DNA from: a bacterium
Lineage (GTDB): Bacteria; Babelota; Babeliae; Babelales; Vermiphilaceae
Length of the DNA: 64,000 nt
Reading direction: 5' to 3'
NCBI GenBank assembly: GCA_021833825.1
Contig: JAKBEL010000007.1
Coordinates: forward strand, 1-64,000
How positions within the stretch are numbered: the stretch's first letter is position 1; the number at the start of each line of letters is the position of its first letter. Below, in pieces: positions 24,062 through 53,840 of this stretch. The notes beneath the pieces were generated by a model. That model ran no database searches, was not told the DNA's origin, and saw nothing but the letters and a program-made list of their open reading frames with translations. The position numbers and the translations under genes were made by a program.

Positions 24062-24889
24062 ATGAGAAAGTTTCATGCATTTCTGTTGTTAACAATGGCT
24101 AGCTTAAGCCTTTTTGATCTTTTTGCCGCCTCAAGAGCCTCTTTACTTCTAAAACCACAATTCCAACAACTAATGAGCAGGCAACTCTCTTCGAGCAGAA
24201 AGCTCATGGCCTCAAGAATTCCAAAGTTAAAATCCTCACCTCTGTTACCTAAGGATAAGCTCCATAATCAGGCCGCACCTTTAAGCTATCAAACAATCAT
24301 CCAAGCATCAAGAAAGCGCCCCCTTGTAGCAACTACCATAGCAGCAACGCTTTCACTTTTTTATACCACAGATTTCTTGATACATTCATATAACAAAATG
24401 GTTGCCACAAAGGCCCTTGAAGAGCTTAAAAAGAATCCATGGGATGAAGGATCTGAAAAAATGTTTACAGAAATAGCTGAGAGAAATAAATTTTCCGATA
24501 AGGGCAGGTTGTTACAAAAACTACAACAAGAGGCCATTCCCCTCTATAACGCTTTTAAAAAGGGTGGGCCAGAAAATTTTTTGTCTCATCTACTAAGCAA
24601 CAAATACTCTACTTACGACGCCGAAAGATTTCTCTCTTCATATCACTTTGAACTCTTTATTAAAAAGCTTACTCCAGAAGAAAAAAATCAGATTCGTTTT
24701 GCGATTGAAGAGCAAATACTAAAGAGGAATAATGAGATTGAAGATCTAACAACTGATCCTGGTTGGCTCTGGGGCAGAAGAGAAAAAGCAGAACCTCAAT
24801 CTTCTGATACAAAGAAAAGGATCAGCACAATCAAAAAAGAATTAATAATCCTTAAAGCTGCTGAAAAGATTTTCTGGGTAATCCGTTAA
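24062..24889 (+). CDS. Secreted protein of unknown function, basic Ser/Arg-rich N-terminus
   Basis: A 275-residue protein. The ATG at 24062 is preferred over the TTG at 24050; GGTTAAATCTATGA around it also occurs at 22207-22220, so the two genes share a leader. A signal peptide (cleavage near residue 22, FAAS) is followed by about 45 residues rich in Ser, Leu, Arg and Lys with almost no acidic residue, then a hydrophobic segment (VATTIAATLSLFYTTDFLI, about 86-104) and a charged helical C-terminal region. Layout resembles the product at 6029. Possible host-directed or envelope protein; function unknown. Its stop overlaps the convergent peptidase gene by 4 bp. Confidence 0.65.
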   Translation: MRKFHAFLLLTMASLSLFDLFAASRASLLLKPQFQQLMSRQLSSSRKLMASRIPKLKSSPLLPKDKLHNQAAPLSYQTIIQASRKRPLVATTIAATLSLFYTTDFLIHSYNKMVATKALEELKKNPWDEGSEKMFTEIAERNKFSDKGRLLQKLQQEAIPLYNAFKKGGPENFLSHLLSNKYSTYDAERFLSSYHFELFIKKLTPEEKNQIRFAIEEQILKRNNEIEDLTTDPGWLWGRREKAEPQSSDTKKRISTIKKELIILKAAEKIFWVIR

Positions 24890-27555
24890 TCAACTCTCCC
24901 TATACGAAGAACCACCATAAAATCAGAGTTCATATATTTACGAGCAGCCTCTTTTACATCATAAAGAGAGATTTTAGCCAAATTTTTTGCTCTAGAATCA
25001 AAATAATCAGACGCAAAACTATATTTTTCTAAAAATAGAAATGCTTGTGCAATATTGGCATTAGAATTAAATATCCCAATCAGAGAATTTGCTATAACAT
25101 TTTTAGCTTCGACAAGCTCATCTTCAGTCAAGGTATCCACCACTGAATTGATCAAATCTTTTATTGCAAGCTCAGCCTCTTTTAATCTATCTTTTGAGAC
25201 CATAGTTCGAACCATAGTCATACCAGGCTGCTTACCAGCCTGCAATGTTGTTGAACCGCTTATTGAATAAAAAAGTCCGGTCTGTTCGCGCAACTGCATT
25301 AATCGTGAATGTAGACCTCCTTCTGCGAAAATTTGATCAAAGAGAAGCAATTTATCAAAATCAGGATTATTCCTATCAACTGATAAACCAGCAAACATAA
25401 GCACAACCTGATCACGATTGATAGGAACATTTAACTCTTGATGTTCAATTGGTGAAAGTGATGGATAAGCCTGCTCTTCAACTTTATTACCGGACCATTT
25501 GCCCAATCTTTTATCTAATAGAGCCTGTACGTCAATATCTCGAAGATCTCCAACAAGAGCCAATGTTGCTCCATCTGGAGAGATAACATTACCATAACAC
25601 TCTAAAAGATCTTCGCGTGTAATACCGGTAATTGAATCGATTGTTCCTGCAGAATTTTTAGAAAATGGATGCCCTTTGTATACAATCTCATTTGCCAATT
25701 GACCAGAGAATGCAACGGGATTATCCCAAAATTGCTTTAGCCCAACATATATCTGTGAACGAACTTTTTCAACCTTATCCTCAGGAAATGTTGCGCAGGT
25801 TAACACTTCGTATAATAATTCTATACCTTTTTCAAAATCATCTTTCAACATTGCCATCGAAATTCCGCCTGGATAGAGCGCTAGACTCATACCGCGTGAT
25901 TCAAGCTCATGTGCCAATTGATCTGCAGAATAATTCTTTGTTCCTTCGGTCATCATACGACACAAGAATGAAAAAAGCCCCTGTTTATCTTCAGGATCAG
26001 ACCAACTCTTTGCTTTTAACTCAAGAACAAGATTGATTTTGGGTGTCTCTGGATTATTATACCATAACAACTTCAGACCATTTGAAAGCATTTCGCTGTG
26101 CGCTTTTGGAAAATTAAAATCTTGCGGAACGTTCACTTTGATATCATGAGCATATTTCGGCAACTCTATCGGAGTTAAACGCTGGCGAGCGGATAAAATA
26201 TCATTATCTTGTTTATCAGAAGCTGCCTGTAAAGAGAGCAACTGAAGTTTATCTGCATCATCAATTAATGGAAGTATCAAACCTCGATGCATAACCGATG
26301 GACGAATAAATTGCTTTAAATAGAGAGGAAGCTCTTTTGCAAATTGCTCTTTTGGTATTTCTAAATAGGTAAAAGCATAATTGGGATCACCCGTTGATAA
26401 ATAATACTGACCTATTAAATATGCTTGCATCTCATTATTTTCAAGAAGATTATATTCGGCCATTTTGGCGTTATTAAGAGCTGTCTGTAATTCCTGATCT
26501 TCAGGACCCAATAAAACCAGCGATTGAACAGTGTCAAGAATAATCTGCTCTATAAGCGGAATATCTTCAACCTTTTTTGGACTATAAATAAACAACATAA
26601 GCCCATAATCAAAAAGATCCAATGGCGAGACCGATATTGAGCTTACCAATTGCTCTTGATCAACTAACCGCTTATAAAGACAAGAACTCTTTCCACCACC
26701 TAAGATAATAGAACTGACATCAGAAAGATGTGATTTTTTCTCTTTTATTCCAGGTATCACAAACGCAATAATACCTGTTGGTTGCTGAATATCTCGATAT
26801 AACGTAACCGATTTAGATGCAATATCTTGATTATGATAAAATTCCTCTTTTTTATAATTTTTATCCGCAGGAATATGCCCAAAGTATTTTTCGGTAAGAT
26901 CAAAAACTTCTTTTTGGTCAACATCTCCAACAACAACTAAGGTTGCGTTGCCTGGATGATAATGTTTTTTATAAAATCGCTCTAAATCAGCCCCTGAAAC
27001 TGACCATAAATCCTGTTTATAACCAATCAGTGGATAATGATATGGATGATCTGGAAAAATGGTGGTCAAAAGATCATAAGCGATTTGGCGCGTATGATTA
27101 TCTTTAAGCATCTTAAGCTCTTGAATCACCGCTTTCATCTCAGAATTTAAATGGTCATCTTTAAAAGATGCATTAATCATGCAATCAGCCATAATAGGCA
27201 ACATCTCTTTCCAATGTTGTGATGGCATATTAAATTTATAACCGGTGTAATCATAAGAAGTAAAGGCATTACAATCACCTGAAAGTTTATGTACCACAAT
27301 TTTTATATCACTCTCAGAGAGCATCTTCTTTGTGCCCTTAAAGATCATGTGCTCAATTAAATGAGCTATCCCTTTTTCTCCTATATGCTCATCCTTTGAA
27401 CCAACATTATACCACATCTGAACAGATACCTTGGGAACAATCTTGCTCGGTTTGACAAGAATAGTAAGGCCATTTGACAAGACTTTTTTTGCAATAGACA
27501 TCGCGCACACATCCTTAATGAAAATCAGCATTAAAGCTATTAATATCTTCTTCAT
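24886..27555 (-). CDS. M16 family zinc peptidase, exported
   Basis: An 889-residue pitrilysin/insulinase-like protease made of two M16 halves. The ATG at 27555 gives a signal peptide (KKILIALMLIFIKDVCA) and is preferred over 27639. The inverted zinc motif HLIEH lies near residue 56 within KGIAHLIEHMIFKGT, with the downstream glutamate region (EMKAVIQELK) about 75 residues on. The second half begins near residue 470 (LSNGLKLLWYN) and lacks the zinc motif, as usual. It should degrade peptides in the periplasm. A related gene without signal peptide lies immediately upstream in the same direction, making a tandem pair. Confidence 0.9.
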   Translation of the reverse strand: MKKILIALMLIFIKDVCAMSIAKKVLSNGLTILVKPSKIVPKVSVQMWYNVGSKDEHIGEKGIAHLIEHMIFKGTKKMLSESDIKIVVHKLSGDCNAFTSYDYTGYKFNMPSQHWKEMLPIMADCMINASFKDDHLNSEMKAVIQELKMLKDNHTRQIAYDLLTTIFPDHPYHYPLIGYKQDLWSVSGADLERFYKKHYHPGNATLVVVGDVDQKEVFDLTEKYFGHIPADKNYKKEEFYHNQDIASKSVTLYRDIQQPTGIIAFVIPGIKEKKSHLSDVSSIILGGGKSSCLYKRLVDQEQLVSSISVSPLDLFDYGLMLFIYSPKKVEDIPLIEQIILDTVQSLVLLGPEDQELQTALNNAKMAEYNLLENNEMQAYLIGQYYLSTGDPNYAFTYLEIPKEQFAKELPLYLKQFIRPSVMHRGLILPLIDDADKLQLLSLQAASDKQDNDILSARQRLTPIELPKYAHDIKVNVPQDFNFPKAHSEMLSNGLKLLWYNNPETPKINLVLELKAKSWSDPEDKQGLFSFLCRMMTEGTKNYSADQLAHELESRGMSLALYPGGISMAMLKDDFEKGIELLYEVLTCATFPEDKVEKVRSQIYVGLKQFWDNPVAFSGQLANEIVYKGHPFSKNSAGTIDSITGITREDLLECYGNVISPDGATLALVGDLRDIDVQALLDKRLGKWSGNKVEEQAYPSLSPIEHQELNVPINRDQVVLMFAGLSVDRNNPDFDKLLLFDQIFAEGGLHSRLMQLREQTGLFYSISGSTTLQAGKQPGMTMVRTMVSKDRLKEAELAIKDLINSVVDTLTEDELVEAKNVIANSLIGIFNSNANIAQAFLFLEKYSFASDYFDSRAKNLAKISLYDVKEAARKYMNSDFMVVLRIGRVD

Positions 27556-27613
27556 AACATCCCTTTTTTTACACATATAACATTGAGTTCTTATCATAGA
27601 ATGTATCAAAAGA

Positions 27614-30238
27614 TTAAAATCTTCCAACCTTAAAAACACTTATATGCTCTAGATTAAGAACATGCTTTACAGCATTGATCATCTCATCTTTTGTAATGCG
27701 AACAATATGTTGCATTCTATCTTTAAAATAATCTCTTGGTAATCCCATGCGTTCAAGAAATAAGAAACTCTCTAAAGCTCCTTTTTGAGTCGCAAACTGA
27801 TCAATCAATTGATGAGCTATAGCATTTTTCGCCATGACAAGATCATCATCGGTAATACGATCTATTGCGAGTTTGATCGTCTCTTTTATTGCCAACTCTG
27901 CTTCAATGAGCCTATCCTGAGATACCATTGTTTTAATATAAAACATCCCCGGTTGCTTGCTTGCATTAAGAACAAGCGAACCTCCAATAGAATAAAAAAG
28001 TCCAGTCTGCTCCCGAAGCTGAAACAGTTGTGAGCTCATAGAACGTTGTGCCCCACCTGTGAAAATCTGATCAAAAAGCAAGAGTGCATCATAAAAATTA
28101 CTATGATAATCAACCGAGAGTCCTGCTAAAACAAGAACTACTTGATCTCTAACTATTGGATAAACAATCTCTTGCGATAATGGCTTTGAAAGAATTGGAA
28201 AATCAATATCTCCTATTTTATTCCCCACCCAACCATTAAAGCTTTCTGCAACCAATTCTTTAATATTAAAATCATAAGCCCCAACAATAGCAATACGAGC
28301 GTGAAAAGGGCTTATATGTTTTTTATAATAGGACAGAATATCATCCCGTCTAATTTTTATAATCGACTCTTCAGTTCCTAGATAGTTTTTACTGTAAGGA
28401 TGATTTTTATAAATATGTTCACGAACCAATTGGCCCACAAAATCATTAGGGCTATCCCAATAATCGGTAATCTCAGATAGAATCTGTGTTCTCACTTTTT
28501 CAATAGCCTCATCATCAAATAATGAATGTCGAACAATATCTGACAGCAATGAGAGCCCATATTGCAGATCATCTTTTAAAAGAGTTAAACTGATATAAGA
28601 TAGGCCTATATCCAGCTGCATTCCTTTAGACGCAAAAGCATCCATAAGGGCCTCTTTAGTATAATTTTTAGTACCCTCTTGCATCATGGCAAAAACAAAA
28701 TTTCCCAATCCCTGTAAATCTACCGGATCATGATAATATTGCACATCAAACTCTATCTGAAGCTCAATCTTGAGCCCCGATGCTGGATAACAGAGAATAG
28801 AGAGGCCATTATCTAAAAGAATTTTTTGATGCTCTGGAATATTAAAAAATAGAGGATCTTTTGCATGTACCGATTGAACAAACCTTCCCGGCTCAACAGT
28901 CGTTTGACGATCTTTACGCGATAAAATTACAGCATCAGTTCGATCACCCTCATCCTGTAACGCAATCCAATATTCTTTTTCCGATTCTGGCAATGGAGCA
29001 ACTGCACCCTTATGCATAATAGAGATTCGTAGATACCTCTTTAAAAAATCAATAACCTTATCTCTGATCATTCCAGTATCAAACTGAAGATGACTATTAA
29101 TATAATAAGGATCACCAGTTGCAAGAAAAGTTTTACCAATAATATATGCTCGCTCCTGAAAGCTCTCCATCTGCACTAGGTAATCCATCTGAACCTGCTT
29201 CATCGCACGAGAAACCTGTTCTTGAGTAACACCATTTTTTTGCAAAGTATCAATGACGCGCCCTATTTCATCCTCTATTTCTGATTTAACGTCATCATTT
29301 ATAGGCTCTATATGCAAAAATAATAATCCATGCTCAAACATGTCATCAACATACATCTGCACATTTGTAGCAAGACAAAGATCATCTACCAATCTTTTAT
29401 AAAAAATAGAACTCTTTGATTCACCCACTATATAAGCAACCACGGATATTACAAAATCCATTTTTGATTGAGTCCCAGGAATACGCCATGCATAGAGCAA
29501 TTGCGATCTCTGAACATCTCGATAGAGGGTAACTCCAGTAGGCTTAATATCTTCAGTTGCGCAAGAGATCGACCGGTCCTGCTTGTTTATCATAGGAATT
29601 GATCCAAAATAAGACTCTATTTCTCTCTGAGCATCTACAGGATTGACATCTCCCACTATAACCAATGTAGCATTATTAGGAGAATAATGTTTTCTATAAA
29701 ACTGCAAAAGCCCATCACGCGTTATTGACCATAAATCCTGCTTATAGCCAATGATAGGATGATGATAAGGGTGATCTGAAAATATATTGGCAACCATAGC
29801 CTCAATTAAACTGGACGAATAATCATCCTTATAGAGTTTTAACTCTTGAATTACAGCCTTTAACTCTGACTGCAACATATCCTCTTTAAAGGTGCAATTG
29901 ACCATGCAATCTGCAAGCATATCAAGGGCAATTAACCAATGCTGCTTCGGAAAATCAAATAAATAACCGGTATAATCATAAGATGTAAATGCATTGGTAT
30001 AACCAGAAAGCTTGCTAGTTATCATATTGATATCAGACTCAGAAAGACGATTCGTTCCCTTAAAAATCATATGCTCTAAAAGATGCGCAAGTCCCTTTTG
30101 GCCGGATTTTTCATCCTTAGAGCCAACATTATACCAGAGCTGAATTGAGACTTTGGGTGTTCCATGATCTGAATTAATAATAACCTGCAAACCATTTTTG
30201 AGTACAGCATGATAAATATCACCAAATATTTTATTCAT
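27614..30238 (-). CDS. M16 family zinc peptidase, paralogue without clear signal peptide
   Basis: An 874-residue two-half M16 peptidase related to its downstream neighbour. Zinc motif HLLEH occurs near residue 49 (KGLAHLLEHMIFKGT), with ELKAVIQELK downstream; the inactive second half starts near residue 455 (LDNGLSILCYP). The ATG at 30238 leaves 104 bp to the divergent comEC-like gene for promoters; from this start no signal peptide is seen. A start at 30337 would add a hydrophobic stretch but overlap the divergent gene's 5' region. The pair may therefore work in different compartments or as a heterodimer, as some M16B proteins do. Confidence 0.88.
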   Translation of the reverse strand: MNKIFGDIYHAVLKNGLQVIINSDHGTPKVSIQLWYNVGSKDEKSGQKGLAHLLEHMIFKGTNRLSESDINMITSKLSGYTNAFTSYDYTGYLFDFPKQHWLIALDMLADCMVNCTFKEDMLQSELKAVIQELKLYKDDYSSSLIEAMVANIFSDHPYHHPIIGYKQDLWSITRDGLLQFYRKHYSPNNATLVIVGDVNPVDAQREIESYFGSIPMINKQDRSISCATEDIKPTGVTLYRDVQRSQLLYAWRIPGTQSKMDFVISVVAYIVGESKSSIFYKRLVDDLCLATNVQMYVDDMFEHGLLFLHIEPINDDVKSEIEDEIGRVIDTLQKNGVTQEQVSRAMKQVQMDYLVQMESFQERAYIIGKTFLATGDPYYINSHLQFDTGMIRDKVIDFLKRYLRISIMHKGAVAPLPESEKEYWIALQDEGDRTDAVILSRKDRQTTVEPGRFVQSVHAKDPLFFNIPEHQKILLDNGLSILCYPASGLKIELQIEFDVQYYHDPVDLQGLGNFVFAMMQEGTKNYTKEALMDAFASKGMQLDIGLSYISLTLLKDDLQYGLSLLSDIVRHSLFDDEAIEKVRTQILSEITDYWDSPNDFVGQLVREHIYKNHPYSKNYLGTEESIIKIRRDDILSYYKKHISPFHARIAIVGAYDFNIKELVAESFNGWVGNKIGDIDFPILSKPLSQEIVYPIVRDQVVLVLAGLSVDYHSNFYDALLLFDQIFTGGAQRSMSSQLFQLREQTGLFYSIGGSLVLNASKQPGMFYIKTMVSQDRLIEAELAIKETIKLAIDRITDDDLVMAKNAIAHQLIDQFATQKGALESFLFLERMGLPRDYFKDRMQHIVRITKDEMINAVKHVLNLEHISVFKVGRF

Positions 30239-30342
30239 AGATCTTCTTTGCGTATAGATAATTTTTTTCAGCTTAAAGCAAATTGCGCCATCTGGCAAAC
30301 AGATCATTACTATTATGTCTAAAATATGTATACTCATATATT

Positions 30343-33010: not shown

Positions 33011-33105
33011 TGGAACAAAAATCACAGAAGTTTCACATTTTCAAACAAGCGCATATACTTTTCATTGAAAGATATATGAGGACACCCTTTAATTAAAAAT
33101 TGATC

Positions 33106-33699
33106 ATGAGCCAAAAAATTTTAAAACAGAAGCTTCTTGATGATCTTTACAAAAATTATAAAACCTCAAAAGAGCTCTATATTAAAGGGGGCGGTAAAAC
33201 AATCATCTTTGGAGAGGGCAACGCAGACTCCAGCATCATATTTATTGGAGAAGCTCCCGGCGCACAAGAAGATCTTCTGGGAAAACCCTTTGTTGGCAGA
33301 TCAGGAAAGTTACTTGATAAACTCCTTGTTACCGCAAAAATTAAACGTGAGGACGTCTTTATCACAAACATCGTCAAGTGTCGCCCGCCCAACAATAGAA
33401 AGCCCTTTGCGCAAGAAATTGCAAGCGCAAGGGAGCTGCTACTCAAACAAATAGATATTATAAGCCCGGCCATTATATGCACCCTTGGGGCATCGGCCCT
33501 AGAAGGAATAACCGACAGGCACGTTCAGATGTCCCAAATAAGAGGGCAATTGCTTTTTTACAACAATCTAACAATTTTACCCACTTATCATCCAGCGTTT
33601 ATATTGCGCAATCCACAGAAGCTTGAGATCCTTGCCAACGATATTATTTACGCATGCAAAAAAGCGAATGAGTTGATATCAAGAACTATAAATGCATAA
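33106..33699 (+). CDS. Family 4-type uracil-DNA glycosylase lacking Fe-S ligands
   Basis: A 197-residue uracil-DNA glycosylase that starts base-excision repair of deaminated cytosine. Family 4 motifs are IFIGEAPGAQEDLLGKPFVG (about residues 45-64), NIVKCRPPNNRKP near 88 and PTYHPAFILRNP near 165. Family members bind a 4Fe-4S cluster through four cysteines: a pair near the N-terminus and two around KCRPP. Here the N-terminal pair is missing (KTSKELYIKGGGK) and the last is replaced (ASARELL); only the KCRPP cysteine remains. The fold and catalytic loops look intact. ATG at 33106 preferred over an upstream TTG. Confidence 0.85.
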   Translation: MSQKILKQKLLDDLYKNYKTSKELYIKGGGKTIIFGEGNADSSIIFIGEAPGAQEDLLGKPFVGRSGKLLDKLLVTAKIKREDVFITNIVKCRPPNNRKPFAQEIASARELLLKQIDIISPAIICTLGASALEGITDRHVQMSQIRGQLLFYNNLTILPTYHPAFILRNPQKLEILANDIIYACKKANELISRTINA

Positions 33700-33770: not shown

Positions 33771-33956
33771 TTAAGAATATAGAGACCTGCAACAGCATCG
33801 ACAAAGCCTCTTTGCTGCAATCAGATTAGAAAATCCAATAAGCCAATCATAAATAGCAAGCCTTGCGCTAGCGGCAGGCACCCTATCTGGGAGTGGAGTA
33901 AAAGCCAAGCCCAACGGCTGCAGATGCGTTATCAAAAAAATTAGCAAAAGAATCAT
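33771..33956 (-). CDS. Possible small secreted peptide, coupled to the upstream gene
   Basis: A 61-residue frame whose ATG overlaps the stop of the preceding leftward gene (ATGA at 33953-33956), the usual arrangement for translational coupling. It opens with a signal-like stretch (ILLLIFLITHLQPLGLAF) and ends with a cysteine cluster (CRCCC). No family recognised. Shortness and lack of an independent ribosome site leave it uncertain; it could also be a displaced tail of the upstream gene. Confidence 0.4.
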   Translation of the reverse strand: MILLLIFLITHLQPLGLAFTPLPDRVPAASARLAIYDWLIGFSNLIAAKRLCRCCCRSLYS

Positions 33957-34681
33957 TCGGCATTAAAAACATGTGCGGCCTCCATCCCAAGCGGGGATCT
34001 CGCTACAGAGCTACGGATGTCCTCTGGGGTCCTTAGCATCCTGGCTGTTTGCGGATTTTGGTACCTGAACCTTTCCCACCTTGGCGCCCAGTATTTTTTT
34101 AGGCCACCCTGCAAAGAATAGATGCCTGGCGTAGAGAGTCCCGCTGCCCCACCCAGCGCGCCCCCTATAATTGCAGCCTCGGGTGATCCATAACGGTTAT
34201 AAGCCAGTGCAGCGCTGGCCAAAGCTGGTGCCATTATTCGAAAATATTGAGCCGTTCGTTGCGCGTCATCACTAGGCCTAAAAAGATTATCTATTGCGGT
34301 TTGCGCCGCATTGCCCCCCAGCAATGTGCTCAGGCTGATATACAAAGGGTCCATAGGAAGATTAAACCAACTAGCATTATCTACAGACTTTGCCAATGTA
34401 ACTATAGGTTGCAAAGCGGATGCGCCATAGTAAAGGGCTCTTCCTCTGCTTGGCAACTGCCTGTCTAGCCATTGGCTCAAATTTGCGCCAGCTTTACCAT
34501 CTGGATTAGGGCTGCTTGCCAAGCTTATCAATGCTCGCATCGGCGCTGGAGGCAAACTTTCCCAAGCACCTTGGGCCCAATTTACGACACCCCCATCCCT
34601 CTGTGCAGCAAGGCCATTCGCTGCGCTTATCATCGCAATGAGCGAGATGAATGATGATACTCTCTTTTTTGTTACAAACAT
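33953..34681 (-). CDS. Secreted protein of unknown function with GC-richer codons
   Basis: A 242-residue protein with a signal peptide (cleavage near ANGLAA, residue 26). The mature part is Ala/Gly/Pro-rich, with a Gly/Ala-rich segment (IIGGALGGAAGL, about 168-179) and several Arg-rich helices near the C-terminus. No family recognised. Its codons use more G and C at third positions than most neighbours (GCG, GGC, CCC), which may reflect transfer or simply its position beside the compositional switch. It is the last gene left of the candidate replication origin. Confidence 0.6.
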   Translation of the reverse strand: MFVTKKRVSSFISLIAMISAANGLAAQRDGGVVNWAQGAWESLPPAPMRALISLASSPNPDGKAGANLSQWLDRQLPSRGRALYYGASALQPIVTLAKSVDNASWFNLPMDPLYISLSTLLGGNAAQTAIDNLFRPSDDAQRTAQYFRIMAPALASAALAYNRYGSPEAAIIGGALGGAAGLSTPGIYSLQGGLKKYWAPRWERFRYQNPQTARMLRTPEDIRSSVARSPLGMEAAHVFNAE

Positions 34682-35435
34682 TTATTTTCCTTTTACTATG
34701 AAACGTTTATATACTATATACTGTCACACCTAATAATACCATTTGTAACCCCCCCCGTGTCAATATTTTAAAAAATTACATCTATGCCTGCGCATGAAAA
34801 TTATTCTGGCATGGCAGCGCAATTGATAGGACGCCAAAATAAGCAACTTTAGCCCCCTCTCCTTTCGCGAACCCTAAGGGAAAGCCCCCCGCTCTTTTTT
34901 GGATATAATGATTCAATGTCATGGTCTCTTTATAGCCCCCGCACCTGTTTTAACAGCAAAAAACTGGCCCAGATTAAGACAAGTTCATGCGCAGGTTCTG
35001 ACCCAAAACTCTGCCCACCAAGAAAAAATAGACTGGTGGATAAGTGGTGGATAACTGGTGGATAAGTGGTGGATAACCACCCAAAAGATTAACGCATTGC
35101 CCCCAAAAACCCTTGCCCAAAAGCTTCCGCGGGGAACGCATTCGCCTGAAGGCTCTCCAGCTGGCTACAAGGTTCGCCAGGTCCGGAAGTTTTCCACATT
35201 CTGTCCACCACTTATCCACCACTTATCCACCAGCACCAAATATCTCCCGCGCCCCTTTGCATGAATCTTGCAGCAATCAACAACACAGTTTTTCCACCAA
35301 AAAACGCTTGACCATTATTATAAGATTTAAAAAAAGAGTTTAATTACTAAAAGCGAGTTAGTTGGTACGCCTTCCCTTTCCAGTTTTTTGTGCTACAATA
35401 GAGAGTAACTATTCAAAAAAAATTGATATCAAATC
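34682..35435. other. Long non-coding gap, candidate replication origin region
   Basis: No convincing gene. 34682-35030 holds C-rich patches (34749-34756, about 34853-34892) but no recognisable element. 35034-35232 holds two opposed sets of 11-bp-spaced boxes. 35280-35380 is AT-rich (for example ATTATTATAAGATTTAAAA), a possible unwinding region, before nusA. Strand composition changes around this gap: by hand count 32881-32940 has 16 C and 8 G, while 36181-36240 has 11 C and 22 G on the + strand. Confidence 0.55.
35034..35232. repeat. Opposed 11-bp-period arrays of TTATCCACC boxes (DnaA-box-like)
   Basis: TGGTGGATAA occurs four times at 35034, 35045, 35056 and 35067, exactly 11 bp apart. On the other side TCCAC cores lie at 35193, 35204, 35215 and 35226, also 11 bp apart; the last two are full TTATCCACCA. 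The sets face each other across about 115 bp. TTATCCACC differs from the E. coli DnaA box TTATCCACA by one base. The arrangement resembles DnaA-box clusters or iterons. Confidence 0.6.
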
Positions 35436-36515
35436 ATGAAGGATATTGTGAAACTTTCTGCAGTTATCGAAGAGCTTGTTGAAGAACGCGGGCTCGCCAA
35501 AGAGACTTTAAGCGCCATCGTCTGCGAGGGAATGCTTGCGGCATATCAAAGAAAATACCCAACCCTTTCGCTTCGTTCTCACTACGACAAAAAGAGCGAC
35601 GATGTTATTATTGAGGTCGAAAAGCACGTTGTGGCTTCGGTTGAAAATGATGACACCGAGATTAGCGCAAGAAGGGCTGTCCATGTAGACAAGTCTCTTG
35701 CGGTTGGCGACGTGGTATGGTTGCCGTTTGATGGTAAGATTGGTCGCATCGAGATCCTAAGGGCAAAGCAAGTAATTGCCGGCAAAATAAGAAAGATAGA
35801 GGCCGATGCGGTTTGTGAGCAGTTTAAAGAAAGAGAGGGAACGATTGTTCATGGGGTTATACATAAATGTGAGCGCGGCGGAGTCTCTGTTAAACTTCAA
35901 GATTTTATGGCCTTTTTGCCAAAATCTCTTATGAGTCCTGCCGATAAATGCATTGTTGGCTACCCGATTCGTGCGCTTTTAAAAGAGGTTCTTCCTGAGC
36001 CACGCAATGAAAATCAGCTTATTTTGGATAGATCATCAGAGCAGTTCCTTATTCGTCTTTTTGAACTAGAAATACCAGAAGTATTTGAAAAGCTTGTAGA
36101 GATTAAAAAAGTGGTCAGATCTGCTGGCTATAAATCAAAGGTTGTTGTTGTCTCAAATGATGTCAATATAGACCCCGTTGGAACTTGTGTGGGTGTTGGC
36201 GGCGTTCGCATCAAGCCCATATTGAAAGAGCTTGGCGGAGAAAAGATTGATGTTCTATCTTCGAGTGATAACCCTGAAATAATGGTTAAAGCTGCGCTAA
36301 AACCGGCAATTGTTAATAGTGTTGAAATTAAGGATGGCAAAGCCTATGTTTGGGTCGATGAAGACCAAAGGTCTTTAGCTATAGGCAAGGGCGGACAGAA
36401 CATTTCCTTGGCGGCGCGCCTTGTTGGAATGGATATTAATCTTGTGCAAGAGCAAAAAAGAGCGCCTGAAGAATCAGGCTTGCTGTTTAGTGAGCAAGAA
36501 GAAATAGAACAATAA
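35436..36515 (+). CDS. nusA: Transcription termination/antitermination factor NusA
   Basis: A 359-residue NusA that binds RNA polymerase and nascent RNA, acting in pausing, termination and antitermination. Order: N-terminal polymerase-binding domain (about 1-125, LAKETLSAIVCEGMLAAYQRK), S1 domain (about 130-200, GTIVHGVIHKCERGGVSVKL), then two KH domains (GTCVGVGGVRIKPILKELGG near 250 and SLAIGKGGQNISLAARL near 310). It lacks the C-terminal acidic repeats of the E. coli protein, like Gram-positive and many reduced-genome forms. infB starts 23 bp later, the conserved nusA-infB operon. First gene right of the origin candidate. Confidence 0.95.
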   Translation: MKDIVKLSAVIEELVEERGLAKETLSAIVCEGMLAAYQRKYPTLSLRSHYDKKSDDVIIEVEKHVVASVENDDTEISARRAVHVDKSLAVGDVVWLPFDGKIGRIEILRAKQVIAGKIRKIEADAVCEQFKEREGTIVHGVIHKCERGGVSVKLQDFMAFLPKSLMSPADKCIVGYPIRALLKEVLPEPRNENQLILDRSSEQFLIRLFELEIPEVFEKLVEIKKVVRSAGYKSKVVVVSNDVNIDPVGTCVGVGGVRIKPILKELGGEKIDVLSSSDNPEIMVKAALKPAIVNSVEIKDGKAYVWVDEDQRSLAIGKGGQNISLAARLVGMDINLVQEQKRAPEESGLLFSEQEEIEQ

Positions 36516-36538: not shown

Positions 36539-38479
36539 ATGTCTATGCGTGTGTATGAATATGCAAAAAAAATTGGTTCCTCATCAAAAGAGATCTTAAA
36601 ACGACTTTCCGACGCTGGATTTGATGTGGCAAACCACATGACAGTCTTGACCGAAGAGGATGTGGAGTTTTTAAATCAAACATACACAAATAAAGAAAAA
36701 AAAGCTCGAAACGGAGTTTTGAGCAATGATTCTGGCCAAGCAGATGCGCTTGCCACAGAGGGGGGCTCGGCCAAGGAAGGGCAGGGGGCTATTGAGATTA
36801 TTCTTGAGCCGATGACCGTTGCGGACATTGCCAGCCAACTTGAGGTTCCCGCCACCGAAATCATCCTTTTGTTGTTAAAGTGGGGGATTGTTGCACCAAA
36901 AAATTATCTATTAGACGAGGCGATTGTCTCCAGAATAGCGCAACACTTTGGGGTTTGTGTAAAAAAGCCTGAAAGAAAAGTTGAGCAAAAGCGAGAGGTC
37001 CGTGCTATTTTGGATAGCGCCAAAATAGAAAAGCGCATGCCAGTTATAGTTGTTCTTGGGCATGTTGATCATGGAAAAACAACGCTGCTTGATTTTATTC
37101 GCAAAACCCGAGTGGCAGCGAGAGAAAAAGGTGGAATAACTCAGCACCTTGGTGCATATCATGTAGAGACCAAGCATGGCGGAATTGTTTTTCTTGATAC
37201 CCCTGGCCATGAAGCTTTTTCAAAAATTAGATCTCGCGGTGTGAAAGCGGCTGATATAGCAATTCTTGTTGTTGCGGCCGATGATGGTATCATGCCTCAA
37301 ACAATAGAGGCTATCAAATTTGCAAAAGAGATGTCGCTCCCTATTATTGTCGCGGTAAATAAGGTTGATAAGGCAAATGCAACAAGGCTAGAAGTTGTTA
37401 AGCGTCAATTGGCTGAGCAAGATCTTTTGCCAGAGGAGTGGGGCGGTCAGACCATTGTTATGCCAGTCTCTGCAAAGGTTGGAACGGGAATAGATGAACT
37501 TTTAGATATGGTCGACTTACAGGCTCAATTGCTTGAGTTAAAAGCTGATATTTCGTCTCCGGCGGCAGGCTATGTTTTGGAGTCAAAGCTAGAAAAGGGT
37601 AGAGGGCCGGTTGCTACAATTATTTTGCAGCAGGGTTATTTGCGCATTGGGGATACATTTATTGCTGGAGATGCAACTGGAAAAGTTTCATCTTTGTTGG
37701 ATTCGCACAACAAGTCGCTTCGAGAAGTTGGGCCATCGCAACCGGTTCAAGTTGCTACTTTTTCAGAGCTTCCAAATGCGGGAGATTACTTTGAGGTTGT
37801 TCCAAAGGGGCAATTGCGTAAGGCTAGGCCGCAACCCAAAGCGGTATCAAAGCCGGGTTTCAAAGATAAGGCTATAAATCTTATCATAAAGGCTGACACT
37901 AACTCTTCAAAAGAGGCGCTAGAAGATGCTATTAAAAAACTTTCCAAAAAAATTGATCATACTGATTTCCATATAGTTGCATCGGGTGTTGGAGATATTG
38001 GTGAGCGTGATGTTCAACTTGCATCTCACACGGGGTCATCAATTGTTGGTCTTCATGTAAAGGCTACAAATGCCTTACATGCTGCTCAAAAAGAGGGCGT
38101 CTCTATAAGTCTTTTTGATATAATATATAAGCTTTTAGAAGATTTAGAGAGGCGTGCAGAGGGCGCAAGAGAGATTAAAATGGTTGACAAAAAGGTTGGA
38201 GAGGGCGTTATTCGTAAGGTTTTTGATATCAAAAAAGTTGGTATTATTGCTGGATGCTATGTCAAAGATGGTATTTTTTCAAAAAATGGAAAAATGGTTG
38301 TTTGGCGTAATAAGCAGAAGATTGGATCTGGGTCCATTACCAGTTTACAGCGTGAAGGCAAAAATATTAAAGAAGTGCATGCTGGTTTTGAATGCGCCTT
38401 TATGGCCGATGGATTGTTAGATTTTGCAGTAGACGATCGCATCGAATGCTATATTTCAGTTCCAGAAAATAAACCATAA
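36539..38479 (+). CDS. infB: Translation initiation factor IF-2
   Basis: A 646-residue GTPase that brings fMet-tRNA to the ribosome. An IF2-N motif (MSMRVYEYAKKIGSSSKEIL) is followed by a short linker and a second IF2-N-like helix region. The G domain starts near residue 170 with GHVDHGKTT, then GGITQHLGAY, DTPGHEAF and NKVD. Domains II-IV follow, ending in the tRNA-binding C2 domain (DDRIECY). Length matches compact bacterial IF2. It is the second gene of the nusA operon; rbfA and truB do not follow, so the classic operon is shortened. Confidence 0.96.
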   Translation: MSMRVYEYAKKIGSSSKEILKRLSDAGFDVANHMTVLTEEDVEFLNQTYTNKEKKARNGVLSNDSGQADALATEGGSAKEGQGAIEIILEPMTVADIASQLEVPATEIILLLLKWGIVAPKNYLLDEAIVSRIAQHFGVCVKKPERKVEQKREVRAILDSAKIEKRMPVIVVLGHVDHGKTTLLDFIRKTRVAAREKGGITQHLGAYHVETKHGGIVFLDTPGHEAFSKIRSRGVKAADIAILVVAADDGIMPQTIEAIKFAKEMSLPIIVAVNKVDKANATRLEVVKRQLAEQDLLPEEWGGQTIVMPVSAKVGTGIDELLDMVDLQAQLLELKADISSPAAGYVLESKLEKGRGPVATIILQQGYLRIGDTFIAGDATGKVSSLLDSHNKSLREVGPSQPVQVATFSELPNAGDYFEVVPKGQLRKARPQPKAVSKPGFKDKAINLIIKADTNSSKEALEDAIKKLSKKIDHTDFHIVASGVGDIGERDVQLASHTGSSIVGLHVKATNALHAAQKEGVSISLFDIIYKLLEDLERRAEGAREIKMVDKKVGEGVIRKVFDIKKVGIIAGCYVKDGIFSKNGKMVVWRNKQKIGSGSITSLQREGKNIKEVHAGFECAFMADGLLDFAVDDRIECYISVPENKP

Positions 38480-45003: not shown

Positions 45004-46260
45004 ATGAAAATTGAATCTATTCAAGCATTTGAACTTTTTGATGCTTTGGGCCAGCCAACTGTTGCATGTACTGTTGTATTAGATAATGGAATTTTTGCCT
45101 CTTCTATCGTCCCATCAGGACAATCAAAAGGATCTTTCGAAGCAAAAGAGCTTCGAGATGCTAAAAACAAGCGTCTCTTTGGAATGGGTGTTAGTAAAGC
45201 GATTGAAAATATTCAGACTATTATAGCACCAGCTCTTATAGGTCTTCCACCAGCTGTTGTTGAGATGGACCTTAAAATGATAGAGCTTGATGGTACAGAA
45301 GATAAATCCAATTTAGGAAGTAATGCAACCTTAGCTGTGAGTATTGCTATTTTAAGAGCCCAGGCTATTGCAGAAGAATTAGAAGTCTATGAATTAATAG
45401 CCCATCTTTGCGATTATGAGAGAGTGACATTACCTTTTGGCATGTTTAATTTAATTAATGGCGGTATGCATGCTCACAATAAATTATCAATTCAGGAGTT
45501 CATGATTATGCCTGTTGGAGTTGATAGCTTTCGTTCATCAGTTGAAATTGTTGCCGAGGTCTTTCATCAATCTGCTTTGTTACTAAAAAAAAGCGGACGT
45601 TTTTTTGGTATTGGCGATGAAGGTGGTTATTCTGTTCCATTTGATCATGACAGAGAAGCTCTTGATCTTATTATGCAAGCAGTACATGATTGTGGCATGC
45701 AAAAACAGATTGTTATAGCACTCGATGTTGCAGCAACAAGACTTTATGATGAAAAATTAAAAACCTATAAGTTAAGCGGCAAAGAGTATACTGCTCATGA
45801 GTTGATTGCCTATTATGATGAGCTGCGCAAACAATATCCTCTATATTCAATAGAAGATGGCCTTCATGAATCTGATTGGTCCTCTTGGCAAGAGATGACT
45901 AAGCAATTGGGGGATAATTTACAAATAGTTGGAGATGATCTTTTTGCAACTAATGCAGCCCGTATTGCTTATGGCATTGAACATCAGTCTGCAAATGCTG
46001 CTGTAATTAAACCAAATCAGGTTGGAACAGTTACAGAGACGCTGCAAGCTATTAAGCTTTGTAAAGAGTATGAAATGAATGTTATAGTTTCACATCGCTC
46101 TGGAGAGACAGAAGATACATTCCTTGTTGATCTTGCTGTTGGAACAAGTGCCGGTCAGATTAAAGCGGGTGGCCTTATGCGCAGTGAACGAGTCTCAAAA
46201 TATAATGCCCTTTTACAGATAGAAGATTCCCTTATGGGATCATTATTGGACTCTTATTAA
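45004..46260 (+). CDS. eno: Enolase, sequence-divergent
   Basis: A 418-residue glycolytic enzyme converting 2-phosphoglycerate to phosphoenolpyruvate. Catalytic features are kept: QEFMIMP (Glu), GDEGGYSVP, ALDVAA (metal Asp), YSIEDGLHE, GDDLF, IKPNQVGT (Lys), VSHRSGETED (His) and IKAGGLMRSERVSKYN (Lys). Unusual changes lie in the otherwise fixed N-terminal motifs: the canonical DSRGNPTVEV reads DALGQPTVAC and PSGASTG reads PSGQSKG. The active-site serine is retained. Function as enolase is likely but kinetics may differ. It overlaps the convergent secretin gene by 29 bp, so terminator sequences must lie within coding DNA. Confidence 0.9.
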   Translation: MKIESIQAFELFDALGQPTVACTVVLDNGIFASSIVPSGQSKGSFEAKELRDAKNKRLFGMGVSKAIENIQTIIAPALIGLPPAVVEMDLKMIELDGTEDKSNLGSNATLAVSIAILRAQAIAEELEVYELIAHLCDYERVTLPFGMFNLINGGMHAHNKLSIQEFMIMPVGVDSFRSSVEIVAEVFHQSALLLKKSGRFFGIGDEGGYSVPFDHDREALDLIMQAVHDCGMQKQIVIALDVAATRLYDEKLKTYKLSGKEYTAHELIAYYDELRKQYPLYSIEDGLHESDWSSWQEMTKQLGDNLQIVGDDLFATNAARIAYGIEHQSANAAVIKPNQVGTVTETLQAIKLCKEYEMNVIVSHRSGETEDTFLVDLAVGTSAGQIKAGGLMRSERVSKYNALLQIEDSLMGSLLDSY

Positions 46261-48823
46261 GATCCAAAGGATTTTCCTGATCAGCTAAGAATGCTTTAAG
46301 ATTTTGTGTGTCACCGGCAGTTGTTTGATTATTATTCTCTTCTTGTTCTTCTATTGTATCAATAACTTTCTTTTGTGAATTATTAACTCTGCACTTTTTA
46401 TTGGGCGATTGAGTTGGCTGGCCTTTAATTCGCGGAGCGCCTTCAATAACCTTACTTGGCTTTGTGCTCTTCTCAAGCGGATTTTCTTCATTAACAAGAA
46501 AATCTTTGAGTGCAGTTGTGGTATTAATTGGCGAATTATTCATTGGCTGATCAAAAACTTGAGCTTCTTGATCAGTAACAATATCAATAGATTGTGATTT
46601 ATATAAAACATCTACAGATTGATCTTTTTGTAAGAAATCAGATGTTATAACTTCAGCTTCAGAATCTGTTTTAAAGAACCATCTGGTGATTGGGTCTCGT
46701 AAATTATCAAAAACGCCGCTCTGTTTGCTATAATTTTTTGCAATTTCTACATAGGCTTTTGTGTATTCGCCAACTCCACCACGAAGTTTAGGCTGAATGA
46801 TTGTTGGAGATATAAATATGCTTAGGCTTGTCTGAGCAACCGTTTTGCTTTTCTTTTTAAAGAACCAACCAAGAATTGGAATATCACTTAAAATAGGAGT
46901 GCGGGTTATTGCATCTGAAGTATCTTCTCTAATTAAGCCGCCAAGAGCTAAAATATCGCCACTCTTTACTGTTGCATTGGTAACAATGTAGCGGCTAATA
47001 CGGTTTCCACTTGTGTAGTCGGTTGGATTATTAAATTGATCAACCTTGATTTCAACAAGGAGATTTACGGTATTGGCTGAGCTTATTCTTGGAGTTATAT
47101 AGACATTGGTATTTGCCTCAATAGGTTGCTTTCTGATGGTAATACCACTGGTGCTAGGAGCAGCTTGGTCTGGTAGCAATCTTGTCTCACCAACTTCTAT
47201 AGATGCTTTTTGATTATTAATAGCAATAACATGTGGGTGAGAGAGTATTTTTGTTGTATTAAAGAGTTGTAATATCTCAAGAATGCTCCATGTATTACCA
47301 TCGTTATCACTGATCGAAATTACAGTTGACCCAGGGGGCTGAGCTTGAGGAACGCTTTCAAACTCGGTAGATCCTGGCGATGCAGGAACTGTTATGGCGT
47401 TTAAATCGGAGGCAACTCCGGTTAATTTATTAATTGCTTCTTGATCATTATAAGGAGCATCAAGAACAACTTGGTCGATCATAGCAGCTTGAAGGCTAGC
47501 ATTGCCAGGAAAGGCTACATCTCGTGGATTACGTGTAATTGATCCTAGGCTTCTGACATCATCAAGGGTTAAATCGGCCAATAGTACTTCGATAATAACT
47601 TGTGGTTGTGGTTGATCAAGTTGTTCAATAAGCATTTTAATTCGTTTCCAGTCATCATTTCTTGCAGCGACAACAAGTTTATTTCCACCAAAGTATTTTG
47701 ACTCTGCATTCTCTTCAGATCCTTCACCGCTTATATCCGGTTGAATAATCACTTGATCAAAAAATCGCTCAGTTCCTCCCTGGGCACCACCAGTTTTGGA
47801 TTGTTCTGTTCCTCCTGAACGGGTTGATTCGACAATATTGCGTAGTATTGGCGCAAAGTCAGAAGCATCCAGATATTGTAGTTCATAAATATGTAATATT
47901 GATCTACCTGAATCGAGTTCAATATCTATATGCTTAAAAATAAAATCTTTTATTCTCTCTACAGCTTGAGATCTACCGATAACTATTAAAGAGTTGGTTC
48001 TTGCTTCAGGAATAACTCGGACATTGCTTGAAAAATAACTTGCAGCTTGATCAGTTTTGTCAAGGTTATGGCGAATGTTTGGTTGAGGAGCGGCGGTTTT
48101 TAAAATTTCTGTAAATATCTTTGCAACATTGGCAGCCTTTGTGTAACGAAGTCGTATTGTTTCAAGATTTTCATGGAAACCAACTTCATCTAAAGCATCA
48201 AGAACTTCTATGAAAGATTTGACGTCTTGTGATTTGCCTATAACCAGAATGCCGTTTGAATCGGTATCGCCTTTTAATAGACTGTCTTCTGGCATAAACT
48301 CTTTAAAGAGGCCCATTATTTGATTATCAAACTCTTGAGAGATTTTTATATTTTTAAGATAGTACATATAACGAATTCTCTCATCGGTATTAGGAATTTC
48401 AGATACCGGAGTGTTAATGTAAATCGGGAATGGCTCGCTGGTGATTGTTTTACTATTTTTTACAATAACATAGAGATCTTTTTTGGGTACAAGGCTATAG
48501 CCAGCGATATCAAGAATCGTATAAAGAAGGTCCCAAGCCTCTTGTAAAGTGAGTTTTTGCGGTATTGATAAAGAGATCTTTGCATTAATGGCATTAGTGC
48601 CTGTTGGAAGAATAATATTTACAGCCTTTTTTGCTGCAAGCATATTGATTATATCGACAAGCTCTTCATTATTGAAAACAAAAGATATTGTAGCGCTCTT
48701 TCTATTTTTTTTTGAAGAGTCATGGATTTTAGCCGCCAATAATTTGTCGTTATGCATTTCTGTATATATATCTGACCAAAGGCAAAAAGAATAAAAAAAA
48801 GAGATTAATAATAGTTTTTTCAT
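46232..48823 (-). CDS. Second secretin of the type II secretion cluster
   Basis: An 863-residue outer-membrane secretin. The ATG at 48823 has AAGGAT upstream and opens a signal peptide (KKLLLISFFYSFCLWS). Repeated N domains cover about residues 40-400 (SLSIPQKLTLQEAWDLLYTI near 95). The secretin domain runs from about 420 to 680, with QVIIEVLLADLTLDDV, VGETRLLPDQ and the typical end TPILSDIPILGWFFKKKS. The tail (about 710-863) is polar and probably disordered. It lies last in an operon that already encodes another secretin, and the two differ in length and tail, so they may form separate or mixed channels. Confidence 0.88.
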   Translation of the reverse strand: MKKLLLISFFYSFCLWSDIYTEMHNDKLLAAKIHDSSKKNRKSATISFVFNNEELVDIINMLAAKKAVNIILPTGTNAINAKISLSIPQKLTLQEAWDLLYTILDIAGYSLVPKKDLYVIVKNSKTITSEPFPIYINTPVSEIPNTDERIRYMYYLKNIKISQEFDNQIMGLFKEFMPEDSLLKGDTDSNGILVIGKSQDVKSFIEVLDALDEVGFHENLETIRLRYTKAANVAKIFTEILKTAAPQPNIRHNLDKTDQAASYFSSNVRVIPEARTNSLIVIGRSQAVERIKDFIFKHIDIELDSGRSILHIYELQYLDASDFAPILRNIVESTRSGGTEQSKTGGAQGGTERFFDQVIIQPDISGEGSEENAESKYFGGNKLVVAARNDDWKRIKMLIEQLDQPQPQVIIEVLLADLTLDDVRSLGSITRNPRDVAFPGNASLQAAMIDQVVLDAPYNDQEAINKLTGVASDLNAITVPASPGSTEFESVPQAQPPGSTVISISDNDGNTWSILEILQLFNTTKILSHPHVIAINNQKASIEVGETRLLPDQAAPSTSGITIRKQPIEANTNVYITPRISSANTVNLLVEIKVDQFNNPTDYTSGNRISRYIVTNATVKSGDILALGGLIREDTSDAITRTPILSDIPILGWFFKKKSKTVAQTSLSIFISPTIIQPKLRGGVGEYTKAYVEIAKNYSKQSGVFDNLRDPITRWFFKTDSEAEVITSDFLQKDQSVDVLYKSQSIDIVTDQEAQVFDQPMNNSPINTTTALKDFLVNEENPLEKSTKPSKVIEGAPRIKGQPTQSPNKKCRVNNSQKKVIDTIEEQEENNNQTTAGDTQNLKAFLADQENPLDLNKSPIMIP

Positions 48824-48830
48824 GAAATCC

Positions 48831-49403
48831 TTACTCCACATATTCTGTTGGTTCTGTGCGAAGCTTTAATGTTGCAATGGTTAATTGTACCTCAAGTGTT
48901 CGCGGGGATTTGCGTGATTTTTGTATTTCAAGAGATTTAGTATAGATTCGCTTATTCTGTTCAAAAATATTAAGTAACTCAGAGAGCTCTTTCATGTTGA
49001 TATCGGTAAATTTTGCAGTTAGAATGCTCTCATTATAATTCTGTTCGCCCCGTTCTTGTGTCGTGACAGAGGTTGAGACCTGTTTGTTTGATAACCCTAG
49101 TATCTCTAATACTTTTATGAAATATCCTTCAATTTTGAAATTAGGATCAGCCTCTAAAATAGCATTGACTTCCTGTTTTTGTTCTTTTATTAAAGCAGCC
49201 TTTTCAAGAAGATCTCCAATCTCTTCACGCTGTATATTAAGCGCCTGTATCTGCTTTTTGTAAGAGTTAACATTGCTGTAAAAACGATATACAATAAAAA
49301 TCTCCAAAAGAACAATAACAGCTAATACTATACCAATATATTTAAAGAAATCTTTGGTATCTAGATTATCAAGAAAATCTTTGATTTGATGTAAGATATT
49401 CAT
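48831..49403 (-). CDS. GspM/PilO-like inner-membrane assembly protein
   Basis: A 190-residue bitopic protein: a short cytoplasmic start, one helix (YIGIVLAVIVLLEIFIVY, about 22-39), a coiled coil (about 45-85) and a small alpha/beta domain. This is the plan of GspM and PilO, which with GspL/PilN link the inner-membrane platform to the secretin. Sequence identity to either is low, so the call relies on size, topology and position. Its start overlaps the upstream gspL-like stop by 4 bp (ATGA), indicating coupled translation. Confidence 0.7.
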   Translation of the reverse strand: MNILHQIKDFLDNLDTKDFFKYIGIVLAVIVLLEIFIVYRFYSNVNSYKKQIQALNIQREEIGDLLEKAALIKEQKQEVNAILEADPNFKIEGYFIKVLEILGLSNKQVSTSVTTQERGEQNYNESILTAKFTDINMKELSELLNIFEQNKRIYTKSLEIQKSRKSPRTLEVQLTIATLKLRTEPTEYVE

Positions 49404-51028
49404 GAGCCCTCTCCTGGTCCTGTTGCAAACCGTAATTCTGTCGTAAAGCTAGGTGTGTCTTTTTTGGGAATGTAACTGAAAAGCTTGGTCTGTTCTAGTT
49501 CACTTTCAAAACGCTTGAGCGCTTCATGATCTCTGACTTGTGCTTTGATAGTTACTACTCCCTTATCTTGGTCTATACCAACTTTATCAAAAATAAGGCC
49601 CAATCCTTCTCGATCAAGACGAGTTAGCTCAAGAAGAAAATTTAAGCATGAAGTTTTAGAATTTTTGCTAAAAGAGAACCATAATTTTTCCTCTTTTTTT
49701 GCCTCTTCTTCTGCCTCTTCTATCATAACATCAAGATGCTGTTCTTCAATATTAGGGAACCATTCAACAAGAATGGTAGAAGCTTCACGACGCGATTGTT
49801 CAAGAGCTGCCCGTAATGCTCGAGTCTGAAATAAGCTATGCATAAGTAGGCTGCTAAATAAGAGAATTGTTAGAATTGCACCAACAATCATCTGTTTAAC
49901 TAATAGTTGATTATTTGAGGGGGCAAACTCTTTTTGTAAAAGATTAAAATGTTCTGTGGTCGTATTTGGTATTGCGATGCTTGCACTAATGCTATTTTCA
50001 ACCGGAATATGTGCAGTTTTTTTTAAGCTAACATGAGGATTATCTGTGATCTGATCAGGATTGAAAATAGCGCATGGTATATTTAATGATTTTTCAAGCC
50101 AGGAATTAAATCCTTTTATCGTAGCTCCGATGCCAAGAAGAAAAATGTGAGAGATCTGCTCTTCTGGATTATTGGTCTGAACCATAAATGATTGCATGGT
50201 AAATTTAAGCTTTGAAACAAAAGAATCAGCAGCACTGTTGATCGCCTCCATAAAAGAGGGTTCTTCCTCTTTTTCAAATCCATGACGGAGAAGCTCTTCC
50301 ATAGCATCTTTGATCGGGATCGAACGATGCGTTCCAACCGCCTTTGCAATATGTGTTGTTCCTAAAACTAGAGTGCGGATAAATTTGAGCTGACCATTAA
50401 GAATGTAAGCTATTTTTGTGCAAGAAAATCCTATTTCTATAAGTAGCACTCCACCAGTAAGATTATTGTAATAAGGAATTGCTCTATAGATTCCATAAAG
50501 CTCAAAGAGATCAATAGTTATAACTTCGGGTTGAATTCCAGCCTCTTGAAAAGGTTCTAATACCTGTCTAATGTGCTGTTTTTGAAGAGCAGCTACGCAG
50601 ATTTCGGAGCTTTTTTCAGTCTTATTTTGTTCTGTTATAATGAAATCTACAACAGCATCATGAATTGAGAATGGTAATAATGGTTCAACTTCAAAATTAA
50701 TAACGCGCTCTATTTTTTCATAATCATCAAATGGTAGCTTCATATTTTTAAAAATAGCCTGTGAGCTTGAAACACTCACATGAATAGATGAGTATTTGCC
50801 AATTGCTGCAAGAGCCTTTTTAATTGCAATTGCTGTGCGTGCGGTTAATTCTTGGCCATTATCCTGCTCTATTGCTATATCTATAGATTGCTCAATAGAT
50901 ATGGATGATCCATGCAGATAGACAGCGGTCGCAAAAACATAATTCTTTGTTATCTCAAAGCCGACTATTCGTTGAGGGAAAAGATAGTAAGATCTGATTT
51001 TTTCAGGAAGGAGTATATTTTGGATCAT
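49400..51028 (-). CDS. gspL: GspL-like protein, PilM-PilN fusion plan
   Basis: A 542-residue protein. Residues 1-345 form an actin-like PilM/GspL cytoplasmic domain (VGFEITKNYVFATAVYLHG near 24, LLIEIGFSCTKIAYILNGQL near 195). One transmembrane helix follows (MIVGAILTILLFSSLLMH, about 375-392), then a coiled coil and a small periplasmic ferredoxin-like domain as in PilN. GspL has this fused plan, while type IV pilus systems encode PilM and PilN separately. It should connect the secretion ATPase with the periplasmic parts. ATGA overlaps on both sides show a tightly coupled operon. Confidence 0.8.
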   Translation of the reverse strand: MIQNILLPEKIRSYYLFPQRIVGFEITKNYVFATAVYLHGSSISIEQSIDIAIEQDNGQELTARTAIAIKKALAAIGKYSSIHVSVSSSQAIFKNMKLPFDDYEKIERVINFEVEPLLPFSIHDAVVDFIITEQNKTEKSSEICVAALQKQHIRQVLEPFQEAGIQPEVITIDLFELYGIYRAIPYYNNLTGGVLLIEIGFSCTKIAYILNGQLKFIRTLVLGTTHIAKAVGTHRSIPIKDAMEELLRHGFEKEEEPSFMEAINSAADSFVSKLKFTMQSFMVQTNNPEEQISHIFLLGIGATIKGFNSWLEKSLNIPCAIFNPDQITDNPHVSLKKTAHIPVENSISASIAIPNTTTEHFNLLQKEFAPSNNQLLVKQMIVGAILTILLFSSLLMHSLFQTRALRAALEQSRREASTILVEWFPNIEEQHLDVMIEEAEEEAKKEEKLWFSFSKNSKTSCLNFLLELTRLDREGLGLIFDKVGIDQDKGVVTIKAQVRDHEALKRFESELEQTKLFSYIPKKDTPSFTTELRFATGPGEGS

Positions 51029-53832: not shown

Positions 53833-53840
53833 CTATTTAC

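Follow-up and report, generated by a model that had tools for sequence, protein, structure and literature searches.

A probable chromosomal replication origin of Dependentiae (Babeliales) upstream of nusA, with two opposed arrays of DnaA-box-like repeats

Main finding

The stretch from 34682 to 35435 of the window (the 64,000 nucleotides analysed) is almost certainly the site (oriC) at which chromosome replication starts in a member of the Dependentiae (Babeliales). A candidate origin had been proposed here from the DNA letters, and this proposal gained support from the cumulative GC-skew minimum at 35313, an array pair unique in the genome, conservation of the arrays beside nusA, skew reversals at the same locus in relatives, overlap with the published presumptive origin of Chromulinavorax destructans, and covariation of the boxes with DnaA. 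Four features looked for in an oriC, namely a skew minimum, a genome-unique box cluster, an adjacent AT-rich element and a dnaA gene in the genome, are present together. One Dependentiae origin at this place has already been published; the order-wide architecture, the linkage to nusA and the co-change of box and DnaA are new.

Architecture of the region

Two opposed DnaA-box-like arrays, with units at 11-bp steps, are followed by a solitary box, a short run of triplets and an AT-rich tract, in the arrangement below (window positions).

33100..33699, + strand: family-4 uracil-DNA glycosylase gene (TIGR00758)
33953..34681, - strand: 242-aa open reading frame between the glycosylase gene and the origin; no Pfam or NCBIfam match
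35035..35076, - strand: left DnaA-box array, four TTATCCACC units at 11-bp steps (35035-35043, 35046-35054, 35057-35065, 35068-35076); same place in relatives
35077..35189, unstranded: central spacer, separating the two arrays; 57% GC in the window, mostly 97-125 bp long in relatives
35190..35231, + strand: right DnaA-box array of four units, one every 11 bp (35190-35198 TTTTCCACA, 35201-35209 CTGTCCACC, 35212-35220 and 35223-35231 TTATCCACC); also in relatives
35232..35289, unstranded: 58-bp spacer from the right array to the solitary box
35290..35298, + strand: solitary DnaA box, TTTTCCACC, one mismatch; TTATCCACM in most relatives
35299..35311, + strand: 13-nt spacer from the solitary box to the triplets
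35312..35323, + strand: DnaA-trio-like triplets CCA-TTA-TTA-TAA; two good here, neighbours degenerate
35312..35360, unstranded: probable DNA unwinding element, 20% GC; includes the skew minimum of the contig
35394..35399, + strand: TACAAT, by sequence match a possible -10 element for transcription of nusA, directed away from the origin
35436..36515, + strand: nusA (TIGR01953), the conserved neighbour on the unwinding side
36539..38479, + strand: infB (TIGR00487)

The sequence-only reading had described four left and four right units in opposite orientation at 11-bp steps, a box one base from the E. coli DnaA box, and an AT-rich stretch beyond the arrays; the coordinates, the repeat itself and the GC content of 35312-35360 bear out all three points, and what that description missed was the solitary box and the DnaA-trio-like triplets. 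The module of the window is weaker than that of the relatives, with only two exact TTATCCACC boxes among the four units of the right array, one mismatch in the solitary box and triplets that are partly degenerate. The arrays stand alone in the genome. In the window, TTATCCAC occurs 9 times against 1.9 expected, a count reached in 0 of 100 shuffles; on the 160-kb contig, box pairs spaced by 11 bp (up to one mismatch) are found in these arrays only, and in the whole 1.23-Mb draft the four occurrences of TTATCCACnnnTTATCCAC are the four spaced pairs described here, the reversed control pattern having 0 occurrences genome-wide. No further tandem 11-bp TTATCCAC array was found elsewhere in the 1.23-Mb draft, and the many equal arrays that would speak against an origin were thus not encountered.

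Strand composition and the published origin of a relative

The GC skew is about -0.1 to the left of approximately 35 kb and +0.1 to +0.19 to the right of it, so that the strand-composition switch noted earlier runs from negative to positive as claimed; the cumulative minimum of the whole 160-kb contig, which had been expected within this stretch, lies at 35313, where the triplets begin, although skew does not resolve a start site to single bases. For this genome, a draft of 23 contigs, skew was taken from contig C22 and parts of C1 and C20; for two complete genomes, those of C. destructans (G055, 1,174,272 bp) and Candidatus Dependentiae bacterium Noda2021 (G024), it was taken from sampled 20-kb stretches. 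In the former the sign of the skew changes near 652126 and reverts somewhere from 80 to 120 kb; in the latter the switches are at 1135744 and near 490 kb. Both pairs are roughly antipodal, and in 42 of 43 named relative loci the skew passes from negative to positive across the site. It could be argued that the switch marks a recent inversion junction, or an effect of gene orientation, at which the arrays lie by chance, since skew partly follows gene strand and the gene strands differ on the two sides; this is hardly credible, as the switch recurs in nearly all of those loci and has an antipodal partner in the complete genomes.

The available text of the C. destructans SeV1 paper (PMC6561590) gives a GC skew, a presumptive DnaA box and a presumptive origin at 651641-652233. 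The array pair of that genome (651690-651871) lies within this interval, with nusA at 652198, and the published origin is thus at the same locus as the arrays here; the arrays, the solitary box, the triplets, the link to nusA and the conservation are not described in the text available from that paper. A search of the open-access literature for origins in this group that are linked to nusA or unlinked to dnaA, and for the oriC of Babela massiliensis, gave nothing relevant.

Conservation across the order

Of the 134 genomes searched, 67 have the exact spaced pattern, and 65 of these 67 belong to the order; the relatives used are MAG-based. Among the arrays listed, those sharing a contig with nusA always lie just upstream of it, and in G060, G066 and G067 both array and nusA are at contig ends. 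When mismatches and genome-specific cores are allowed, both arrays have at least two units in 74 of 82 nusA-upstream regions of relatives and at least three in 66 of 82; clear arrays at nusA are absent from G045, G098, G100 and G025. In these relatives the left array points away from nusA and the right array toward it, with steps of 11 bp in 326 of 388 cases (12 bp in 50, 22 bp in 8, 10 bp in 4) and inner gaps clustering near 100, 111 and 122 bp. Tandem direct repeats of one helical turn in opposed blocks do look iteron-like at first sight, and such repeats could belong to an integrated plasmid or phage and be bound by a Rep protein instead of DnaA; this is extremely improbable for repeats found at one and the same position in most of the order, beside nusA-infB and with no rep gene among the scanned neighbours, and whose unit differs by a single base from the DnaA box of E. 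coli and changes in step with a DnaA residue.

The unwinding side recurs as well. The distance from the right array to the solitary box, start to start, is 66-68 bp in 52 of 66 relatives, the spacer from this box to the triplets is 13-14 nt in 56 of 69, and at least three CTA/TTA triplets (in runs of 3-5) follow the box in 55 of 69, compared with 29 of 1600 positions chosen at random; the unwinding tract, ahead of nusA, has about 10% GC. A mirrored unwinding module left of the arrays was considered and rejected as a conserved feature, the box and the run of at least three triplets each being found in 4 of 66 relatives. An IHF-like bending site was likewise rejected for both spacers, as no useful enrichment was seen among 69 relatives: matches to WATCAANNNNTTR number 0 of 69 in the 58-bp spacer and 3 of 69 in the central spacer, where shuffled sequences gave a mean of 0.5 and a largest value of 3. 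Two HU/IHF-family genes are present.

Two loci differ from this picture in their own ways. At L020 (G027:C8, upstream of nusA) the left array is expanded to 15 consecutive 11-bp boxes, which indicates that array length can grow via unit duplication. In G045, where no exact array was found, a frame-broken DnaA C-terminal stretch (C12:7140-7342) lies just upstream of nusA (7585) where the arrays would be expected; another dnaA is on C13.

Neighbouring genes and the position of dnaA

Most records of NusA relatives, at approximately 55-77% identity, bear the name Candidatus Dependentiae, Babeliales or TM6, some of the MAG records being labelled only 'bacterium' or carrying an evidently wrong name. 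On the other side, visual inspection of the DNA suggests that in several relatives the end of the glycosylase gene immediately adjoins the origin on its left, and the 242-aa open reading frame that intervenes here is apparently absent from G001. The window also contains a type II secretion/type IV pilus cluster (GspD, PilM-like, GspC; 46232-54956, - strand), approximately 11-20 kb right of the origin and transcribed toward it, two adjacent M16-type peptidase genes of 917 and 907 aa (24886-30337, - strand), and a protein weakly matching ankyrin-repeat effector models (59085-59918, + strand); the available text of PMC6561590 reports ankyrin repeats as abundant in the phylum Dependentiae. No RNA families or tRNAs were found in the window.

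As the sequence-only reading had supposed, dnaA is unlinked: it was found on another contig (G000:C1; E=8.5e-69, 457-aa open frame). Of the 'parA partition pair' of the same reading, only ParA (7785-8546) is recognisable; the open reading frame next to it gave no ParB family match, nor was any parS-like site found in the window with up to three mismatches; the pair is therefore not confirmed.

In relatives, dnaA is far from the origin and near the terminus (G055:C1 1117; G024:C1 432020; G073:C1 1278; G040:C2 371111; G057:C8 402174; G091:C5 30743), at 0.84-0.89 of the half-circle in the three single-contig genomes (G055, G024, G073) and 527-643 kb away on the large contigs of G040, G057 and G091; it would consequently be among the last genes copied. 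G035 is an exception, with dnaA approximately 21 kb from the origin.

Comparison with known origins

Two oppositely oriented arrays have been reported in E. coli oriC by Rozgaja et al. 2011 (as described in PMC6727663), the opposed one lying beyond R2 (PMC6727663). Both origins share two opposed arrays of four 9-bp sites separated by 2 bp (11-bp period) and a solitary box on the side of the unwinding element, apart from the nearer array and pointing to that element, and the left half of E. coli oriC, mirrored, gives the layout seen here. In MG1655, R1 was computed at 58 and the array sites at 113, 124, 135 and 146, all in R1 direction, which gives 55 bp start to start, shorter by about one helical turn than the 66-68 bp found here. 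The E. coli array sites, whose weakness acts as a timing device, have low affinity and prefer DnaA-ATP (PMC6727663), whereas the units here are, judged by sequence, mostly near-consensus, so that the layout is better called E. coli-like than assigned to that type. The neighbours also differ (mnmG/mioC there, nusA here), and the IHF site of E. coli has no detectable counterpart; with no enrichment of an IHF-like motif across the 58-bp spacer, the E. coli bending step is without support in this group. Closely spaced R-box arrays are known from the oriC of Thermus thermophilus and Aquifex aeolicus (PMC6727663), and the likeness to them, drawn from their description, is that closely spaced strong boxes would suit a DnaA-ATP filament.

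The unwinding side resembles the basal unwinding system (BUS: DnaA box, spacer, DnaA-trios; PMC8287927), in which spacers extend up to 16 bp with a peak at 10-13 and the DnaA-trio consensus is 3'-GAT-5' (PMC8287927). The complement of the CTA/TTA triplets reads 3'-GAT-5'/3'-AAT-5', and the relatives have the box, the spacer of at most 16 bp and the at least three consecutive NTN triplets of that system, common features being the box, the 13-14 nt spacer, the NTN triplets and the AT-rich DNA. A tandem box pair is the more frequent form of the BUS (57%; PMC8287927), whereas here the box is single and an array stands 58 bp behind it.

Proposed initiation at the site

Replication probably initiates here as follows. 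DnaA would bind the near-consensus boxes and form two oppositely directed oligomers, one on each 11-bp-phased array, with one box per helical turn. The right oligomer may extend across the 58 bp that separate its array from the solitary box (35290) and, beyond this box, onto the single-stranded triplets at 35312, and the AT-rich tract between the solitary box and nusA would open; helicases would be loaded and forks leave both ways, which would explain the skew switch. The left array, having no unwinding module of its own, is probably a second platform, concerned with helicase loading, in support of the second helicase, and with timing, by analogy with the right half of E. coli oriC.

E. coli DnaA also regulates some promoters and is titrated at some loci, and the arrays, placed just upstream of nusA and the TACAAT element, might be read as a place where DnaA binds as a regulator or is titrated (control of the nusA promoter, or a sink of the datA type), with replication starting elsewhere. 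This is very unlikely, since the chromosome-wide skew switches exactly here in this contig and in the two complete relatives, and locally in 42 of 43 loci, and since a module of box, spacer, triplets and AT-rich DNA is needed by an unwinding site and not by a regulator.

Co-change of the box and DnaA

The arrays are tied to DnaA by the boxes themselves, whose changes track the DnaA position that corresponds to D433 of the E. coli protein. The list of variant boxes preceded any look at DnaA sequences; six genomes carry a G at box position 5 or 6 through both arrays.

TTATGAAC: G046 and G051
TTATCGAC: G036, and G058, where it is mixed with TTATCAAC
TTATGCAC, mixed with TTATCAAC: G008 and G028

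In exactly these six, the Asp of the DnaA motif RDHST is replaced by Asn, a change seen in none of the 64 others scored; this Asp aligns to E. coli D433. Among 4254 residue-column tests, the one for Asn at this position ranked first (p=7.6e-9, without correction for relatedness). On a DnaA tree built without these columns each trait changes five times, and in independent pairs on well-supported branches the traits agree in 4 of 4, too few pairs for a sign test to reach significance (p 0.125). D433 of E. coli DnaA is reported to contact the box, the published contact being at position 7, whereas the changes here are at positions 5 and 6. Among the genomes with TTATCAAC, the Asp is kept in G039 and G090 and is Ser in G061; the core is shifted in G014 (units TTATCCAAC and CTCCAACA), which alone has Cys three residues after the Asp.

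These data point to a repeated re-coding of the DnaA-box alphabet in Dependentiae, which appears likely in at least five lineages and would involve both arrays and mostly the solitary box, with the G-bearing cores TTATGAAC, TTATCGAC and TTATGCAC arising along with Asp-to-Asn at an otherwise near-invariant residue; the result would be natural initiator-origin pairs, orthogonal to one another, at a single conserved origin. No papers on a co-change of this kind between DnaA box and DnaA domain IV were recognised in the open-access literature.

Significance

With this site, a whole and largely uncultured phylum would gain a defined origin, conserved in the setting udg - oriC - nusA-infB and unlinked to dnaA, from which replication direction and growth (peak-to-trough) could be read in metagenomes. 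Since the site is a very regular natural example of the two-array origin of E. coli, array geometry can be compared between many genomes. The joint change of box and DnaA residue, in turn, would render the evolution of initiator-origin specificity directly testable in vitro; if the specificity switch is true, Asp DnaA should favour CCAC and Asn DnaA the G-bearing box (box versions TTATCCACA, TTATGAACA, TTATCGACA and TTATGCACC).
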